Shown here piece after piece: positions 37,268-59,935 of a stretch of DNA of 64,000 nucleotides. The DNA is from a bacterium (lineage in GTDB: Bacteria > Desulfobacterota > Deferrisomatia > Deferrisomatales > BM512). The stretch covers positions 1 through 64,000 of the forward strand of contig SCTA01000032.1 of NCBI GenBank assembly GCA_004322275.1. Reading direction: 5' to 3'. Every line of letters begins with the position of its first letter. The stretch's first letter is position 1. Below the pieces are notes generated by a model. That model searched no databases and had not been told where the DNA came from. It saw only the letters and a list, made by a program, of their open reading frames with translations. Both the position numbers and the translations under genes were made by a program.

Positions 37268-38143
37268 TTAAGGAGAATTCAGCTTTTCTTTTATCAAAAC
37301 CGGAACATGTATAGATAGGCTATCTGATAAATTTAATTTTTCGTTAAGTATGTATATAAAATTGTTAATGTTGAAGGGTAAAGAAACACCAAGGTCCAAA
37401 AATACTTTAATCGCCTCTTCTCTCTCCAGTCTATAGACTTTTTTTGCAAATTCGTTATCATTATCGAACAATTCGCTAAGCTCGGTTGATAATTTGTTAC
37501 TATTAAACCTTAGCCTAAACTTATGCCACAACATTGATTCCCACTTTTTTTCTTTATAATATAGGTATGATAACTTGTTAAACATTTCTATCATTGACCA
37601 TTCGCTTGTTGTTAGTGTAGCGTATACTCCGTTTAACAATCTACTAATGTCATCATGCCCTGCCCAATCATTAATGCGTTTATATCTTAAATCATGTTCT
37701 ATCTCATGCCAGCCTTCGGAAAGAATGGTGCGTATTTGGACTTCAAAACAACTTTCAATTATATCTGAATATTCGCAAAATTCTAATTTCATTATGGCTT
37801 TGAATTCTTTTTCTAAGTCTTCAGGTATTTTAAATAAAATGTTTAGCCTAACCGGTCCAAACACATCTTTCTCTGGTTTGTCATAAACTTCTTCAACCTG
37901 AAAAAATTTTCTTTTTAAATAACCCCTCACTGCATCAACATCATCTGCAAAATATAGCATTATACGTAAACCGATAATGTCTGTTATTTTTTTTCCAGTA
38001 ATTTTATAGTTTTTGTTGTCAATTTTTCTTTCTGCGGATTCCTTTGATTTTTCTCTACTAAATATTCTGTAAAAAAGGCCGCTTTGCTGTAGCTTTAATT
38101 GCATATCACTCTCTAGGGATTTTCTCACTCTTTCAAGTCCCAT
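37268..38143 (-). CDS. RelA/SpoT-domain nucleotidyltransferase, putative defence effector
   Basis: 291 residues with no hydrolase, TGS or ACT domain, so a stand-alone synthetase-type protein. Conserved positions of the RelA/SpoT synthetase fold are visible: SREKSKESAERK (Arg30, Lys32, Ser33, Lys40), TDIIGLR (Asp55, Arg60), and FEVQIRTILSEGWHEIEHDLRYK (Glu134, Gln136, Arg138, His150). The acceptor-site GYxSxH loop of true ppGpp synthetases is not seen; FGPVRLNILFKIP occupies the region. The substrate may therefore differ. ATG 38143 lies three bases after the NACHT-protein stop, with AAGGAA in the end of that gene, so the pair is co-translated. Strongly A+T rich compared with nifA and ubiA on either side. 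Confidence 0.85.
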   Translation of the reverse strand: MGLERVRKSLESDMQLKLQQSGLFYRIFSREKSKESAERKIDNKNYKITGKKITDIIGLRIMLYFADDVDAVRGYLKRKFFQVEEVYDKPEKDVFGPVRLNILFKIPEDLEKEFKAIMKLEFCEYSDIIESCFEVQIRTILSEGWHEIEHDLRYKRINDWAGHDDISRLLNGVYATLTTSEWSMIEMFNKLSYLYYKEKKWESMLWHKFRLRFNSNKLSTELSELFDNDNEFAKKVYRLEREEAIKVFLDLGVSLPFNINNFIYILNEKLNLSDSLSIHVPVLIKEKLNSP

Positions 38144-38146
38144 GGT

Positions 38147-40264
38147 TTAATTCCTTCCCAAAATTTCTGCAATTTTACCAATATTTTCTATAATTAAATT
38201 TGCATCATTCTGATCGATATTAATCAGCTTCTCTCTCTGAAGTTTCTTAATTGCATCTGGAAGATTGTTTTTTTCTTTTGAGCTAAATCCTGCAAAAAGA
38301 GTTCTAACCTTTTTTCTCATTTCTGCTTGAGCTCTACCAGGTCGCCAAAATTGCTCTAAAACTTTTATTTCCAAATCTGTATATGTTTCGTCATGCTGCT
38401 CAGTGATAGATCTGTCCGTATATTGTATCTCAAATAACTTTGTTCCAGTTTCATTGCAACCAATAAAATCCTCATGCCTAAGAAGTTCGACATTTTCAAA
38501 ATAGCAATTATGAAATGAACAGGATATAAAATTAACATTTATAAAGTTTTTAAAATCAAATTTACAATTAGTAAAAACAGTATCCAAGAAGGTGCATGTT
38601 TCTATAGTATTAGTTGAGAAGTCGAATTGATCTAATGAAAGGCTATTTATCGTATCGTTGTATAGTTTACTACTTAAAAATTTTATTAACTTGTCATCAA
38701 TCGTAATCTTCAATTTGGCAGGCAGTAAAGTATCGAGGGTAAGCATAACCTTATCATGCAATCTCTTTCTTAGCTCAAACGATTTTGTTGAGAATGACAT
38801 TGGCCCAAGTTCTAGCCATGGCGTAACCGCTAATTCTAATAAGAATTCTTCGTCACTATTAATGGTTGCGTGTGCAATAAAATAACCAAATAAAAATTGA
38901 TTTAAAAACCCTATCCTTCTGTCGGCAGTGCTTATTCTATCAAAAAAGGCATGATTTATTATCTTATCTATTAATTCATCAAGTTTTTGTACTTCACTAG
39001 GTCCGCTACGATCGATGGCATTCTGTAAGGTAATGACAATGTTGTGCTCTTCGATAAGCAATTTAAAAAATGATCTATCTAAAGCCGATGAATTGTTTAA
39101 CACCATTCCTTTGGCTATAGCCGTAAGAACTTCTTTCTGTTCACTGCTAGTTAAAGGCAATACTTGCCTTTCTCTTTCTCGTTCAAACATAAATGAAAAA
39201 TAGCTTTCAACCAATCCATCAGGTGCCTTCGCTTCTTCCTCCACTTTTTCTTTTGGCATATTGCGTATATAGGATAGCAGTACCGGGTTGGACAAAGATT
39301 CCAAAGGAAAATTAGTTTTTTTAAGAATTTCAGACCGTTCCCGGCCGATCCAATCGTTTGTTGAAGGTGCTTCTAATTCAATTATATGGAGTCCAAAAGA
39401 ACATGATTCTTGGCAACGGTTAATCCAAGCCTCAAAACCATCATCAGTGAAAATAGCTGTTCTTCGTGTTGTTAGAATAATTTTTGCTTGCCCTACTAGC
39501 ATCTCGGCTATTGTGTCAAGCATCGACTGTGCATCTTCAAAATCAGCTTGCCGTCCCTCGGCTATGTTAACTTTTAGTAATTCATCAAAACCATCTATAA
39601 TTACAGGAATAAGTCCTTCCTGTATCTGCGTTTTTACTAAGCCTGAGTTCAAAGTTGGATACATAGAATCTATTTCATCTAAAAGAACGTATTTAAATAT
39701 TCTCGCAGATCTATTGCGAGCTAACTCGGCAAATATTGGATTGCCTATTGTTTGATTTGAAAGCATATCATTCATAATTTCATAGGCAGTAGAGGTTTTG
39801 CCGTAACCAGCCGCAGCTTCTATTATAACTAACTGAGGACCATTATCAAAAAGAAAACTTGCAATCCTATTAATAATCCCTTTATCATCAAACTTAACGT
39901 TGTCTATTGTATACAAACATGGTATATATTCATATTTACCTCCTATTGTTAATGATCGTTTATCGATATAGTTATTATATTGATTTCGCAATCTCTCGTG
40001 GATTATACCGGGCGTAAAAAACGAGTTGAATAACAGTTTGGCAATATCTTCTTTGCTGTTATACTCTACAATTCTGACGGCGTATCCAGCACTTTTATAT
40101 TTGTTTTCATATATTTCTACGTTTATGGTTTTATCAAATACAACGATATCTACACCGTAATAAACACCTCTATTAAATTCATAAATACCTATACCCGGAA
40201 CCGTATCTGCAATCTTATAACCATATTTCTCATAAAAAGAGTCAATATGTGTAGGAGTTTTCAT
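38147..40264 (-). CDS. NACHT/STAND NTPase with pentapeptide-like C-terminal segment
   Basis: 705 residues. The central NTPase (about 140-340) has Walker A AAAGYGKTS (150-158), the NACHT-type Walker B VIIDGFDELL (221-230), and an LTTRR sensor (264-268). Residues 1-80 form an unassigned alpha/beta domain with YYGVDIVVFD and VEIYENKY. The 340-540 region is helical, as in the arm of STAND ATPases. Residues about 543-595 form a short run of pentapeptide-like units rich in F, C and N (CTFLDTVFTNCKFDF), then a helical tail. Bacterial NACHT proteins are known anti-phage sensors that oligomerise on recognising a trigger. Here the effector appears to be the RelA/SpoT-domain protein encoded next. No transmembrane segments are seen. 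Confidence 0.85.
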   Translation of the reverse strand: MKTPTHIDSFYEKYGYKIADTVPGIGIYEFNRGVYYGVDIVVFDKTINVEIYENKYKSAGYAVRIVEYNSKEDIAKLLFNSFFTPGIIHERLRNQYNNYIDKRSLTIGGKYEYIPCLYTIDNVKFDDKGIINRIASFLFDNGPQLVIIEAAAGYGKTSTAYEIMNDMLSNQTIGNPIFAELARNRSARIFKYVLLDEIDSMYPTLNSGLVKTQIQEGLIPVIIDGFDELLKVNIAEGRQADFEDAQSMLDTIAEMLVGQAKIILTTRRTAIFTDDGFEAWINRCQESCSFGLHIIELEAPSTNDWIGRERSEILKKTNFPLESLSNPVLLSYIRNMPKEKVEEEAKAPDGLVESYFSFMFERERERQVLPLTSSEQKEVLTAIAKGMVLNNSSALDRSFFKLLIEEHNIVITLQNAIDRSGPSEVQKLDELIDKIINHAFFDRISTADRRIGFLNQFLFGYFIAHATINSDEEFLLELAVTPWLELGPMSFSTKSFELRKRLHDKVMLTLDTLLPAKLKITIDDKLIKFLSSKLYNDTINSLSLDQFDFSTNTIETCTFLDTVFTNCKFDFKNFINVNFISCSFHNCYFENVELLRHEDFIGCNETGTKLFEIQYTDRSITEQHDETYTDLEIKVLEQFWRPGRAQAEMRKKVRTLFAGFSSKEKNNLPDAIKKLQREKLINIDQNDANLIIENIGKIAEILGRN

Positions 40265-40387: not shown

Positions 40388-41166
40388 GTAGGGCGGGCTC
40401 GGCCCGCCGATTTACAACTTGCGAGGCTTTGCCTCGCGCTCCTAGCCACCTTTTAAGTGAGTAAAAGGTGGCCCAAAACTCAGCCCGGACTCGTCGCTCG
40501 CGCTTTAAAAAGCGCGACCACTTCGTTCCGGCTGGGCAATGCATCCCCGTCGGTCAAGGAGGCTGCATTCGTGCCACGCTTCATCCCGAGCCGCGTTGTC
40601 GCTCATCGCCCTTGCTATTCTGGCTCTTCGCTTCTAGCGGCTCGGGCGAATCGCGGCCCTCTGTGCTTGCGCCTCTTTGACCGACGGGGATGCCGGGCAC
40701 CCACTTCGCTTCGCTCCGTTAAGACCCCGCGCCGGCCCGACGCCTCTACTCGTTGCGCCGCGTACGGGCCCCGAAGGAGACGAAAAGAAGGCTCGAACAA
40801 AAGCGAAATCGTTTTGAGCTTTTGTTCTCGAAGGTAAATTTTTTACAACTATCCAAATCAAAGAATACGTGTAGACAATCTGCCTTCGAGTCCAAAAACA
40901 TTTCGTTATTTCGTTTTTGGACGAGCCTTCTTTACGTTCCCCCCATGGCCCGTAGGTGACGCAGGGAGCGGAGGCGGAAAGGGCGGCGGGGGGGTCTTAG
41001 TGAGCGCAGCGAACGAGTGCCCCCTCACGCCCCCGCCGCAGCGACCGGTCGCTCGAAGAGCGAGCGGAACCTCTCGGGCCGAGTTTTGTCCCACTTTTTC
41101 GACAAAAAGTGGGGCGCGGGTGCGGGGCGCGCTAAGCCCCGCAAATTGTAAAAGTGCGAAGCACAC
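40388..41166 (+). repeat. Large multi-hairpin dispersed repeat, copy 1 (with insert)
   Basis: About 779 bases, closely similar to 59218-59845. It consists almost wholly of consecutive hairpins: 40391-40407; a stem within 40420-40440; CCACCTTTT with AAAAGGTGG (40446-40471); 40499-40517; 40795-40804 with 40818-40827; 40891-40900 with 40912-40921; and several more to 41142. Stem bases that differ between the two copies change on both sides, keeping pairing. No credible coding frame is present. It differs from copy 2 mainly by a 153-base inverted-repeat insert. It fills the gap between the defence island and ubiA. Confidence 0.85.
40541..40693. mobile_element. 153-base MITE-like insert with 23-base terminal inverted repeats
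   Basis: Ends 40541-40563 and 40671-40693 are inverted repeats matching at 22 of 23 positions. The insert is absent from the second copy of the host repeat, where the flanks (ending ggctgggc and starting gggcacccac) are joined by only a few bases. It encodes nothing and has an inner GAGCCGC/GCGGCTC stem. It looks like a non-autonomous element that inserted into the larger repeat. Confidence 0.7.
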
Positions 41167-41167
41167 A

Positions 41168-41290
41168 AAAAAAGTCACTGGTTTCCCGCTTTCGCGGGAA
41201 TGACGAAGGAAAATTTGTCGGCTTTCGTTCCTCAAGCGCGACCTACGCAACTATCCTTGCTTTCCGCCTTTCGCGGGAATGACGGCGTTC
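41168..41290. repeat. REP-like palindromes (cgcgggaatgacg type)
   Basis: Two related units, CCCGCTTTCGCGGGAATGACG near 41189 and CCGCCTTTCGCGGGAATGACG near 41265, follow the structured repeat. They match the end of the palindrome at 5481-5526. They lie in the otherwise empty 110-230 bases before ubiA. Confidence 0.6.
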
Positions 41291-49426: not shown

Positions 49427-49729
49427 GTTGCGTAGAGCGGCAAAACAAGTAGTTGCATTTATCGGAGGTGCCCTTTCATGTGAACTTTAATGCATCCCTA
49501 GGTTAATGATGTCCCATATAATATTAAGCATAAAAAAGCAGCCCTTAAAGGTATTGCTTTCCTTGTAATATCCACCAAAAAATGATACGAGTAAGGTATT
49601 GAGTTATTTTTTGGCGCTTGTATGCAGAAAGAAGTTTAGCGTGATTGCTTAAAAAAAAGACCATAGTTGTCCGCTTAAGGAAGCCCAATGTTTCGGCGGC
49701 CAAAAATTAATTTTTGGAGGGTAGTCATC
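49427..49729. other. A+T-richer intergenic region
   Basis: About 300 bases with lower G+C than surroundings and no gene, repeat or terminator that I can support. The ribosome site GGAGGG for the LRR gene is at 49716. An upstream in-frame ATG at 49688 lacks one. Confidence 0.4.
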
Positions 49730-52700
49730 ATGGCTGGCAATCGATCTATCGTTTTCATGCTTGTTTCTCTGGCTCTGTTTATCATTGCCGCAGGCTGCAC
49801 CGGCGTCGAAGGCGGCAAGAGCTACTTGCCCCCGGACATTGAAACCCAGGATTCACTGGGCAAACCTACCGATACGGGTGCCACGGAGATAGTTTTCAGC
49901 TGGCCTCCCCAAAGTCCCTTTACAGTATTGAAGAGCAGCAGCTTTATTTTAACCGGAACCGCGACGGACCCGGATGGGGTTCAGGAAATAAAATGGTCTA
50001 CCGGCCGAGGTGAAAGCGGCGTCTGCAAAGCAACGGTCAATTCCTTTTTCGCCTCCGGCGAGATACCTCTTCAATCGGGTGCGAACGAACTGTCCGTCAC
50101 TGTGACGGATACTTCGGGCAGCACCTGCAGTTCCTCAGTAACTATCATAAATGACGATGCCGACCACGAACCCCCGCTTGTCCGTTTTGTCAACCTGATC
50201 CCCAACGAATATAATATAGATGTGAAGAGCAGCGTCATCATAGCCTTCAACGAGGCGATGGATGGTTCCACCATAAACTCTTCCGCCTTCACCCTCGTAA
50301 TCGGGTCAAACCCGGTTCCTGGAGTTGTAAGCTACGACGCAAACACAAAGAAGGCGACCTTTACCCCCGGCCAGCCTCTGGCCTATTCAACCGGTTACAC
50401 CGCGAGGGTGACTACAGGGGTGAGTGACATCGCCGGGAACCATCTGTCTTCCGACAAAGTGCTGACCTTCACCACAGCCGGCATGGACAAGGTTGCCACC
50501 CCGGTTATTGATCCTTCCGAAGAGCCTGGACCAGTGCATTTTTACGACGAGGGGGTATCCGTAAGAATAACCAGCGCTACCCCGGGTTCGTCGGTCTATT
50601 ACACCACCGACGGCACGAATCCAACAACCGCATCGGCCGTGTTCCAAGACGTAATATTTGTAAGCTCCACAACTACCGTAAAGGCCATTGCCGCAAAAAG
50701 CGGAATGGCCGATTCCTCGATTGCAAGCGAATATTTCGTAAGAGAATTGGGTAATCCTGAACCTCCGCCAATCGTCAGCGGCCACTTCCCGGACCCAAAC
50801 CTCGACGCATGCGTAATGAAAGCTACCCGCGGAGATACAAGCACTGAGGCTCTTGCAGGCTTGACGGAGCTTTATTGCTCTGAAGTTGGGATAAATTCTC
50901 TCGACGGACTGGAGCAATTGTCCGGGCTTGGCGTATTGTCCATTTATTACGGTAAGTTAAATGACTTGCACCCCCTTTCAAAAATTCCCTCTCTGCATAA
51001 ACTGTTGATCATAGGTGGCGGCGAAATCACGGATCTTTCCCCCCTCGCGGGGCTGGAGAATCTGAAGTTCCTCAGCATCTGGTATAACAAAATTGAAGAC
51101 CTCTCGCCTTTGAGCGGGCTGACCTCTCTTGAATACCTGTGTCTTTGGGGCAACGATATAGTAGATATTTCCGCGCTCTCAGGTATGAAGTTTCTTAAAT
51201 GGCTTGAACTGCGCCAGAATAAGATAACTGATATCTCCACCGTCTCCGGATTGGACAATTTAATTAGTCTTGGTATTGAAGAAAATCAGGTAAAGGACCT
51301 GTCTCCTGTATACGGGTTACAATTTTTATCCGAAATTGCCGCATCACACAACAAGGTTGAAGTTCTATCGCTACGCGAGTTGCCTTCCCTCATTACCATT
51401 TGGCTGGACAATAACAACATTAGCCGGGTCGAATCGCTTTCGGACTTTGTTACCCTTAAAAATCTCTATCTCAGAAATAACCGGATCACCGATTTGCCTC
51501 CCTTGCACTTGTCCAGCTTGGGTGACGTGAAATTGAATGGCAACATGATTACGGACATCTCTCCTCTGGCGGGCAATCAACTAACCAATCTTGAGTTGCG
51601 ACAAAACAGGATTGTAGACATATCCCCACTTCAGAAAAGAGTAGGAGATGGGCTATATGGCACGGGATACAAATATCTCGATTTGGGAGACAACCTTATA
51701 ACCGACATATCCCCTTTAGCTTTGTGCCCCATCGAGAACCTTCTTCTCGGAGGGAACAGGATAGCCGACATCTCGCCCCTGGCTGGAAATACATCCTTGA
51801 AAGAACTGGGGCTTTCCTCAAACCCCATCACGGACATAACCCCGCTTTCGCGAACGCATCTTGAAAGGTTGTATCTCGAAAAAGCCAACATATCCGACAT
51901 TGCCGCGCTTTCCGGGATAAAAGAGTTGGGTTACGTGGAACTGAGCAACAACGATATAAGTGATCTGTCCCCTCTTGCCGGTCTTCCTGCACTGTGGTTT
52001 ATTGCTGCTAAAAATAACAGGATCACTGACCTCGGGCCGATATGGCAATTGCCGAAGCTCCGGATGCTCAATGTGTCGTACAACCAGATCGAAGCCCTTC
52101 CTTCCGGGCCCGGTCTGCCGGAGGCAGGGATTTTATGGCTCAGCCACAACAACATCTCGGACTTGGCCCCGCTGCAAGGACTTCCCCTTCTTCTCAAGGT
52201 AGACCTCTCCTACAATCGGGTCACGGACCTTTCACCGGCGTGCGGAATAGTCAGTCTTGGCGAAATCAGGCTCTCAAATAACCTGATCTCCGATCTCACT
52301 CCCGTGAGCAGAATTCCAAAACTGAAAAACATTGACCTTGGCTACAACCCTATAATGAGCCTAGCTCCTCTTCAGGGGCTGCCTCTGGTGATGCTGAGTC
52401 TCGATGGCCTAAACCTTAGCTTGGAGCCGCTGGGCGAAATGCCCTTTCTGCTGGGGCTGAGCGCTGCTTACAACCGTATTTCGGATCTGTCTTCGCTTGC
52501 GAGGTTCAAGTATCTTGAATATCTAAGAATTAACGACAACCTCGTAACCGACCTGTCGCCGCTGGCGAATATGACCTCGATGGAAAGACTCTATCTGGGC
52601 AATAACCAGATAGCAGACATTACCCCGCTTGGCGGAATGTCCAGGCTTCAACTCCTCGAACTGAATGGAAACCCGCTTACAAGCCTGTCGCCGCTCGCAG

Positions 52701-53095
52701 GTACGCCTAAGCCAATCCTGACGATAATCAAGCTGAAGTCATGCAGGGTCACCGATTTTTCCCTGCTCGCCGACATCGGCTACCTTCATGGATTACAAGT
52801 GCTGGACGCGAGCGACAACGGCATCACGGATTTGTCCTCGTTTTCAAATTTGACTTCTTTAACGTCCCTCACGCTGGAGAACAATCAGATATCAGACCTG
52901 TCGCCTCTTTCCGGGCTCCATAATCTGGGCAGTCTGTATCTTGCACACAACCTTATCGAAGACGTCGCGCCCTTGTCCAAAATTCGCCCGGATTATTTAA
53001 GTCTTGAATACAATTGCATTACCGATTTTTCGCCGGTTTCATTCGTCAGAAACCTCTTTACCGATCCGCAAAATGTAGACTGTGTCCAACAATAG
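49730..53095 (+). CDS. Leucine-rich-repeat surface lipoprotein (internalin-like)
   Basis: About 1121 residues. Signal ending IIAAGC gives a lipid-anchored Cys near residue 20. Then an Ig-like domain (about 45-135), a Big_5-type Ig domain (about 145-245, PPLVRFVNLIPNEYNIDV through LTFTT), and a chitobiase-C-like beta domain (about 250-335, VYYTTDGTNPTTA). From about 355 to the end are roughly thirty 20-23-residue leucine-rich repeats of the SDS22/internalin type (LSPLAGLxxLxxLxLxxNxIxD). Such proteins bind other proteins or glycans at the cell surface. Base composition is lower in G+C than most of the window, so transfer is possible. No partner gene is adjacent. Confidence 0.88.
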   Translation: MAGNRSIVFMLVSLALFIIAAGCTGVEGGKSYLPPDIETQDSLGKPTDTGATEIVFSWPPQSPFTVLKSSSFILTGTATDPDGVQEIKWSTGRGESGVCKATVNSFFASGEIPLQSGANELSVTVTDTSGSTCSSSVTIINDDADHEPPLVRFVNLIPNEYNIDVKSSVIIAFNEAMDGSTINSSAFTLVIGSNPVPGVVSYDANTKKATFTPGQPLAYSTGYTARVTTGVSDIAGNHLSSDKVLTFTTAGMDKVATPVIDPSEEPGPVHFYDEGVSVRITSATPGSSVYYTTDGTNPTTASAVFQDVIFVSSTTTVKAIAAKSGMADSSIASEYFVRELGNPEPPPIVSGHFPDPNLDACVMKATRGDTSTEALAGLTELYCSEVGINSLDGLEQLSGLGVLSIYYGKLNDLHPLSKIPSLHKLLIIGGGEITDLSPLAGLENLKFLSIWYNKIEDLSPLSGLTSLEYLCLWGNDIVDISALSGMKFLKWLELRQNKITDISTVSGLDNLISLGIEENQVKDLSPVYGLQFLSEIAASHNKVEVLSLRELPSLITIWLDNNNISRVESLSDFVTLKNLYLRNNRITDLPPLHLSSLGDVKLNGNMITDISPLAGNQLTNLELRQNRIVDISPLQKRVGDGLYGTGYKYLDLGDNLITDISPLALCPIENLLLGGNRIADISPLAGNTSLKELGLSSNPITDITPLSRTHLERLYLEKANISDIAALSGIKELGYVELSNNDISDLSPLAGLPALWFIAAKNNRITDLGPIWQLPKLRMLNVSYNQIEALPSGPGLPEAGILWLSHNNISDLAPLQGLPLLLKVDLSYNRVTDLSPACGIVSLGEIRLSNNLISDLTPVSRIPKLKNIDLGYNPIMSLAPLQGLPLVMLSLDGLNLSLEPLGEMPFLLGLSAAYNRISDLSSLARFKYLEYLRINDNLVTDLSPLANMTSMERLYLGNNQIADITPLGGMSRLQLLELNGNPLTSLSPLAGTPKPILTIIKLKSCRVTDFSLLADIGYLHGLQVLDASDNGITDLSSFSNLTSLTSLTLENNQISDLSPLSGLHNLGSLYLAHNLIEDVAPLSKIRPDYLSLEYNCITDFSPVSFVRNLFTDPQNVDCVQQ

Positions 53096-59118: not shown

Positions 59119-59217
59119 ACTCCCGGCTGGCTGCTGCCCGCGCCGGAATGTTGTGAATACGGGGGATTTTTTGAGGAGAGGGTGATAAAACCCTAAAATA
59201 AGTAGATAGTTAAACGG

Positions 59218-59845
59218 TAGGGCGGGCTCGGCCCGCCTGTTTACAGCTTGCGGGGCTGTCCGCCCCGCGCCCCAAGCCACCTTTTGAGTGAGCAAAAGGT
59301 GGCCCAAAACTCAGCCCGGACCCGTCGCTCGCGCTCAAAAGAGCGCGACCACTTCGTTCCGGCTGGGCCGTACGGGGCACCCACTTCGCTTCGCTCCGTT
59401 AAGACCCCGCGCCGGCCCGACGCCTCCACTCGCTCTGCCGCGTACGGGCCCCGAGGGGGAACGAAAGGATGGCTCGCACACGAGCAAGGATATTTTAGCT
59501 CGTGTGCTCGAAGGTAATTTGTCTACAACTATTCAAAAAATGCATACGTGTAAAAAATCTACCTTCGAGTCCAAAAACATTTCATGATCTCGTTTTTGGA
59601 CGAGCCATCACTTCGTCTTCTTCGTGGCCCGTAGGTGACGCAGGGAGCTTAAGGCGGAAAGGGCGGCGGGAGGGTCTTAGTGAGCGCAAGCGAACGGGTG
59701 CCCCCTCACGCCCCCGCCGCAACGACCGGTCGCTCGTAGAGCGAGCGGAACCTCCCGGGCCGAGTTTGCCCCACTTTTTCGGCAAAAAGTGGGGCGCGGG
59801 TGCGGGGCGCGCCAAGCCCCGCAACTGTAAAGGTGCCAAGCACAC
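59218..59845 (+). repeat. Large multi-hairpin dispersed repeat, copy 2
   Basis: About 628 bases, the uninterrupted form of 40388-41166. Corresponding hairpins: 59220-59236; GCGGGGC with GCCCCGC (59250-59269 region); CCACCTTTTG with CAAAAGGTGG (59277-59302); 59330-59348; 59476-59485 with 59498-59507; 59568-59600; to 59822. Several stems differ from copy 1 by paired changes. Nothing in it codes convincingly; short frames such as 59241-59429 minus also occur in copy 1 and follow from conservation of the repeat. Confidence 0.85.
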
Positions 59846-59848
59846 ATA

Positions 59849-59888
59849 TTGTGGTGCGTTACGCCGCTTCGCGGCTAACACACCCTAC
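59849..59888 (+). repeat. GGTGCGTTACGC palindromic repeat, copy 3
   Basis: GTGGTGCGTTACGCCGC, then TTCGCGGCTAACACACCCTAC; same unit as 11360-11398 inverted and 5533-5569. It directly follows the large structured repeat. Confidence 0.75.
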
Positions 59889-59935
59889 GCCACTTTTGCT
59901 GCGTTCAAAGGATCTGCATGACTATCCTGCCCCAA

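Follow-up and report, generated by a model that had tools for sequence, protein, structure and literature searches.

Multi-hairpin arms in mixed tail-to-tail dimers: a dispersed and possibly REP-like repeat family of a Deferrisomatales bacterium

Palindromic repeats of the REP type are, as a rule, very small and associated with RAYT transposases. They have been described as single hairpins of 20-40 bp tagged GTAG or CGTC, which are extragenic, occur in many copies and are biased towards positions downstream of genes (PMC3733652). Repeats with either tag occur as singlets, as tail-to-tail and head-to-head dimers, as hetero- and homodimers, and in mosaic clusters (PMC3733652). The window analysed here, a 64,000-nucleotide stretch of contig SCTA01000032.1 (assembly GCA_004322275.1), contains two copies of a far larger palindromic repeat (Table 1).

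The original prediction described the two copies as chains of hairpins with two-sided base changes, and these are present far above chance. Each copy contains 11 nested matches to perfect hairpins with stems of at least 9 bp; 200 dinucleotide shuffles averaged 0.24 such matches and never exceeded 4. The ranges first given for the copies proved slightly too wide: the elements proper span 40411-41152 and 59240-59831, and the ~20 bp at the start of each range belong to a distinct REP-like palindrome with a GTAG tag, which has 45 genome-wide matches at up to two mismatches against one for the reversed control. Copy 2 is an imperfect palindrome from end to end, with inverted arms and 416 of 615 alignment columns self-complementary (68%). 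Copy 1 is the same palindrome with an additional 153-bp insert, which has 23-bp arms that are 96% complementary and an inner 10-bp stem, and is common to the copy at G000:C1:79184-79950 (G000 being the genome of the window). Folding of copy 2 as RNA gives z scores of -16 for the plus strand and -18 for the minus strand, and folding of copy 1 as DNA gives -14. The open reading frames spanning the copies (40457-40837, 40906-41250 and 59502-59921) have no match in Pfam and the copies vary by indels, so protein coding was rejected.

Table 1. Window positions of the two repeat copies, their parts and the adjoining GTAG-tagged palindromes
Feature	Position	Strand	Basis
GTAG-tagged short palindrome, REP-like (GTAGGGCGGGCTCGGCCCGCC), adjoining copy 1 head	40388..40408	+	sequence; genome-wide matches
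Copy 1: A arm and B arm joined tail to tail, TTTACA... heads, imperfect palindrome	40411..41152	+	
Copy 1 A arm; head TTTACAACTTGC, tail TTTACAACTAT; split by 153-bp palindromic insert	40411..40852	+	
Extra palindromic insert in copy 1 A arm	40541..40693	.	
Copy 1 four-way-junction core; outer stem GGCTCG/CGAGCC	40790..40927	+	
Copy 1 core hairpin, AACAAAAGC type	40796..40826		
Copy 1 core hairpin, TCCAAAAAC type	40891..40921		
Copy 1 core centre arm, CTCGAAGGTA/TGCCTTCGAG			
Copy 1 B arm; head TTTACAATTTGC at 41152, tail at 40865	40865..41152	-	
GTAG-tagged short palindrome adjoining copy 2 head	59217..59237	+	
Copy 2: A-B tail-to-tail dimer	59240..59831	+	
Copy 2 A arm	59240..59532	+	
Copy 2 outer hairpin slot H1, GCGGGGC/GCCCCGC	59250..59268	+	
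Copy 2 hairpin slot H2, GCCACCTTTTG/CAAAAGGTGGC	59276..59303	+	
Copy 2 four-way-junction core	59471..59606	+	
Copy 2 core hairpin, CACACGAGC type	59477..59506		
Copy 2 core hairpin, TCCAAAAAC type	59570..59600		
Copy 2 core centre arm	59507..59516/59560..59569		
Copy 2 B arm	59544..59831	-	

Both copies belong to a dispersed, intergenic family for which we identified 77 places in G000 (2.88 Mb in 45 contigs): BLAST was run with entire copies and with parts of them, and the loci retrieved were merged and searched again. A few of these places are short fragments and up to 40 candidates were scored per search, so the family size is fairly given as at least 70, and all copy numbers are lower bounds; 27 of the 77 are no more than ~120 bp from a contig end, which would be expected of repeats. 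Among 59 relatives, a DNA match was found in one congener only (G001), whose diverged version keeps the architecture with different stem sequences. A covariance model of the core, run on 118 genomes, recovered G000 and G001 and one weak match in G074 (E 0.007, 50 of 164 positions) that was taken as chance, with no convincing family match in the 116 other relatives. A core-pattern scan of the genome collection found two stretches of SRXB01 (bacterium isolate D1FMe1.002), one of them sequence-identical to a G001 contig; single stretches in two unrelated MAGs (Chlamydiales and Ruminococcus) were taken as chance. Phages, plasmids and viral contigs, the last searched with two patterns, gave no match. 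In Rfam, no family reached the gathering score for the window copies, and a miRNA match at E 0.44 is at chance level.

Cutting the palindrome at its centre revealed its unit, a multi-hairpin arm of ~300 bp that belongs to type A, B or C and occurs either solo or in a tail-to-tail dimer of ~600 bp, itself an imperfect palindrome. From the outside in, the arm consists of a head, hairpins H1 and H2, a G+C-rich stretch that sets the type, GGCTCG, an inner hairpin, CTCGAAGGTA and a tail (GTTTGTTTACAGCTA); its hairpin slots are H1, H2, H3, the inner hairpin and half of the centre stem. The head is usually TTTACAnCTnGC or TTTACA(g)CT-GC and the tail usually CTCGAAGGTA..TTTACAGCTA; H1 is represented, for example, by GCGGGGC and GCGAGGC, and H2 by GCCACCTTTT, GTCACTTCTTT, GGTACTTCTTT and CCCACTTTTT. 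The 83 arm ends comprise 54 that make up 27 tail-to-tail dimers, in which the CTCGAAGGTA blocks are 23-44 bp apart (130 in one dimer), and 29 that are solo. The tail is TACANNTA exactly or in a close variant in 47 of the 83, with other variants in the remainder. Most solo arms end at this same tail motif, which marks the arm as a true unit rather than a product of random breakage. Dimers have inverted TTTACA..TGTAAA ends, in solo arms the motif is directly repeated, and many heads are variant. The dimer centre can be folded as a four-way junction made of the outer stem, the two inner hairpins and the centre arm. Arms of the same type have a median identity of ~86%; no pair of arms exceeds ~96% over its full length, which gives no indication of an ongoing burst or of recent activity.

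The inner hairpin is represented by about five recurrent types (TCCAAAAAC, AACAAAAGC, CAAATGAGC, CACACGAG and CCGATAAG), which are present in numerous copies and each shared by at least two arm types. This bears directly on the stem to which the original prediction drew most attention, 40795-40804/40818-40827 (GAACAAAAGC/GCTTTTGTTC), whose counterpart at 59476-59485/59498-59507 is GCACACGAGC/GCTCGTGTGC. Three pairs do differ between the copies, each on both sides, but the two stems are hairpins of different types with different loops (AACAAAAGC versus CACACGAGC) and so are best counted as one replacement instead of three compensations. Two-sided changes between two copies should accordingly be read with caution, as they can amount to a single swap of hairpin type. 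The other stems that had been singled out are two-sided as described: 40421-40437 (GCGAGGC/GCCTCGC versus GCGGGGC/GCCCCGC), 40446-40471 (A-T to G-C) and ~40499-40517 (T-A to C-G). True single-pair compensation within one lineage, with similar loops, is seen in CAAATGAGC, CACATGAGC, CACACGAGC and CCCATGAGC, and H2 provides a compensation series, GTCAC/GGCAC/GGTAC, around a constant TTTTAGAAA loop.

The predicted covariation was borne out when more copies were collected. Across 26 cores (23 from G000 and 3 from G001), 14 of 18 arm-stem pairs have two-sided changes, and 94% of cells are paired as opposed to 33-44% in slid-partner controls. Two-sided cells in the arm stems number ~96 against ~5 one-sided ones; these are counts of cells and not of events, as the copies are not independent. 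Loops vary while stems are kept, as had been proposed: among hairpins of the TCCAAAAAC type the stems diverge by 2-6% and the loops by 32%, so pairing has been kept while the copies diverged.

Maintenance of pairing had been attributed to selection on structure. The pairing is indeed kept, but selection is not its sole explanation, as template-switch copying could equally keep stems paired. Template switching in quasi-palindromes, a documented source of instantaneous compensatory changes (PMC8794818), copies one side of a stem onto the other, so that pairing would be mutational and the repeats otherwise functionless; the great excess of two-sided over one-sided cells in the arm stems is in keeping with it. 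Full inversion of loops, one footprint of the process, was not seen: the loops of like stems match 67% forward and 20% inverted, and only 17 of 626 loop pairs are closer when inverted, although switching confined to the stem would leave no such mark. The spread, the placement and the mixed-dimer pattern described below are also left unexplained, and we consider this account possible rather than probable.

The 164 local arm hairpins contain 1646 Watson-Crick pairs, one G-T and one A-C pair, figures that understate the exceptions because the search penalises mismatches and favours perfect stems. When the inner stems were inspected without a penalty, non-standard pairs were likewise rare, and G-T was not in excess of A-C on a fixed strand. 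An RNA made from one strand should tolerate G-U, so these results and the lack of an Rfam family disfavour the one-strand structured RNA that was among the original suggestions. In its general form, as a regulatory or trans-acting non-coding RNA family transcribed from many copies, that explanation draws on the strong covariation, the elaborate conserved fold and the architecture kept in the congener. It is very unlikely, however, given the near absence of G-U pairs, a fold that is equally strong on either strand, the absence of an Rfam match and the preference of the copies for positions between gene ends. Strict Watson-Crick pairing is compatible with DNA hairpins, with an RNA required on both strands, or with template-switch copying, and two other initial suggestions, a cruciform element and a mobile element acting as single-stranded DNA, remain live.

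Another property of the family is that its dimers are mixed. The 23 dimers in which both arms could be typed comprise nine A-B, ten B-C and four A-C combinations but no same-type pair, against 7.5 expected (0 of 20,000 shuffles). Likewise, inner stems within two mismatches of each other are found in none of the 27 dimers against 6-7 expected (P=2e-4 with stems shuffled within arm type). These P-values are nominal because of shared ancestry, yet many different combinations of stems and arms are present. Each of four dimers in G001 combines one CAAATC hairpin with one different G+C-rich hairpin. Comparison of H1 and H2 within dimers is unreliable: no shared H2 was seen in the ~14 sound pairs, a number too small for a test, and some share H1, and three apparent cases of the same H2 stem from arms cut by contig ends.

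This pattern is most likely caused, we infer, by the loss of matched dimers, which are strongly palindromic; assembly failure at long palindromes or a small number of founder dimers could account for part of it. Long palindromes assemble badly and 27 of the 77 places touch contig ends, so same-type dimers might have broken or collapsed in the draft assembly, making the whole pattern an artefact of assembly and sampling. That would hardly explain why the pattern extends to the 9-bp inner stems (0 of 27), which ought to pose no problem for assembly, or why it is repeated in the four G001 dimers, and diverged same-type arms (median identity ~86%) should assemble no worse than other repeats; we therefore regard an artefact as rather unlikely.

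The placement of the copies is skewed towards gene ends. Genes could be called on either side of 37 copies; of these, 19 lie between convergent, 15 between tandem and 3 between divergent genes, compared with 10, 35 and 9 gene pairs, respectively, in the window; the convergent excess has a nominal P of 7e-6, based on crude gene calls. REPs have been credited with roles at gene ends (PMC3733652), and the present repeats might similarly be host-adopted elements that act in both directions, their hairpins lying in the 3' regions of mRNAs from both strands (in termination, mRNA stability or replication-transcription insulation) and requiring Watson-Crick pairs on both. The convergent skew and the strict pairing agree with such a role. 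On the other hand, any mobile repeat that avoids promoters and genes would show the same bias, composition differs among copies, and copy 1 itself sits between divergent genes, which makes a gene-end function an unlikely explanation.

Upstream of ubiA, G000 has copy 1, and G001 and three family relatives have no element; this is a difference and not a clean empty site, as the upstream gene also differs between the congeners. At ychF, G001 has a half-element directly downstream and G000 has copy 2 one gene further. The G001 half-element (G001:C69, L227 178-500) is a solo one directly 3' of ychF that ends just before a terminator-like hairpin. The flanks, inspected by eye for the target-site duplications that had been suggested as a check, show none that is evident and often consist of other repeats. 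Y1_Tnp (PF01797), the sole transposase family searched genome-wide, is absent from both G000 and G001, with control genomes positive, and RAYT mobilisation was rejected on this ground.

The surroundings of the copies have several features of their own. Copy 1 adjoins a gene pair of weak codon bias at 37268-40264, which encodes a NACHT-associated inactive nuclease with a NACHT domain and a RelA/SpoT-domain protein; upstream of ubiA the congener has another gene at this place, and the pair looks like an acquired insertion, possibly related to defence. Two CGTC-tagged short palindromes of the CGTCATTCCCGCG type lie just outside copy 1 (41183-41206 and 41262-41285), and this genome, which lacks a Y1 transposase, seems to contain both the GTAG- and the CGTC-tagged REP superfamily. 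To the right of copy 2 lies a common short palindrome (59853-59885, GGTGCGTTACGCCGCTTCGCGGCTAACACACC), and similar palindromes sit inside the centre of the dimer at G000:C25:35658-36307. Between the two copies, the window encodes a large leucine-rich-repeat protein with Ig-like and chitobiase-C-terminal domains (49688-53095). Elsewhere in the genome, two solo arms lie tail to tail around a signalling/ATPase-like gene group (G000:C41:258-2624) and another two around a lipoprotein-like gene (G000:C9:44975-45890). These host-like genes between facing solo arms may be reminiscent of cargo between dimer halves, with chance a possible cause; inspection of the two intervals found no transposase-like gene.

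On balance, we lean towards the view that the family consists of REP-like, probably non-autonomous DNA hairpin elements, for which a mobilising enzyme and any function would be putative. Either single strand of a dimer, or an extruded cruciform, would fold into a rod capped by the four-way junction. A trans-acting enzyme may recognise the hairpins in DNA form and spread arms or dimers, and arms and inner hairpins may reassort via recombination. Dimers of matching arms, being long near-perfect palindromes, would be removed by SbcCD-type palindrome-processing nucleases or by deletion, and only mixed dimers would be left. This reading is supported by copy number, anatomy, the consistent ends of most solo arms and two-sided stem changes, as well as by the near absence of non-Watson-Crick pairs, the mixed dimers, the convergent-skewed intergenic placement and the orthologous congener site that lacks the element. 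Against it, a genome-wide search for Y1_Tnp found no mobilising gene, there is no sign of a current burst, no clean target-site duplication was seen, and the strict pairing could be mutational. A more elaborate version is doubtful: in a hairpin-cassette DNA system, large arms would pair only with a different arm, which would keep several orthogonal stem types in circulation, and the feature that is recognised would be the mixed junction itself, as the target of a dedicated non-RAYT enzyme or as a chromosomal landmark where convergent genes end.

The family would offer a natural test of whether selection or template switching produces stem compensation in DNA palindromes, and of how palindrome-processing nucleases shape genomic repeats. 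Among known repeats, bcr1 of the Bacillus cereus group is likewise intergenic and present in many copies with a conserved secondary structure; it differs in being shorter and is not known to be built as a tail-to-tail mixed dimer. As far as MITEs and other small mobile sequences are characterised in PMC2229807, the family resembles them in being non-coding and dispersed and perhaps in the inverted terminal TTTACA/TGTAAA of its dimers. It differs from MITEs as outlined there in its near full-length self-complementarity and hairpin slots, in solo arms that lack terminal inverted repeats, perhaps in the absence of a clear target duplication, and in having no autonomous partner among genes of PF01797, the one family searched genome-wide. 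With REPINs, in so far as PMC3116915 describes them, it shares two inverted hairpin units with a short spacer and the occurrence of solo units; by the same description, it differs in arms ~10 times longer, in the absence of a Y1/RAYT gene from either genome and in having no near-identical copies. Similarity to REP/BIME sequences is seen in its extragenic, high-copy occurrence as singlets and inverted dimers (77 places, 27 dimers, 29 solo arms), in its skew to positions downstream of genes (19 convergent, 15 tandem and 3 divergent by crude gene calls), and in the GTAG- and CGTC-tagged small palindromes that flank it, the tags being confined to those neighbours. In contrast to REP/BIME sequences, its arms are ~300 bp long with several hairpins and TTTACA-like ends, and its dimers are mixed without exception in the sample. 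The family thus behaves as an oversized REP dimer yet departs from REPs and REPINs in two respects, size and tag on the one hand and RAYT on the other, and is therefore placed among palindromic repeats but outside REP/REPIN. It would widen the REP class to arms ~10 times longer that have several interchangeable hairpin slots, do without RAYT and are apparently barred from joining a matching arm.
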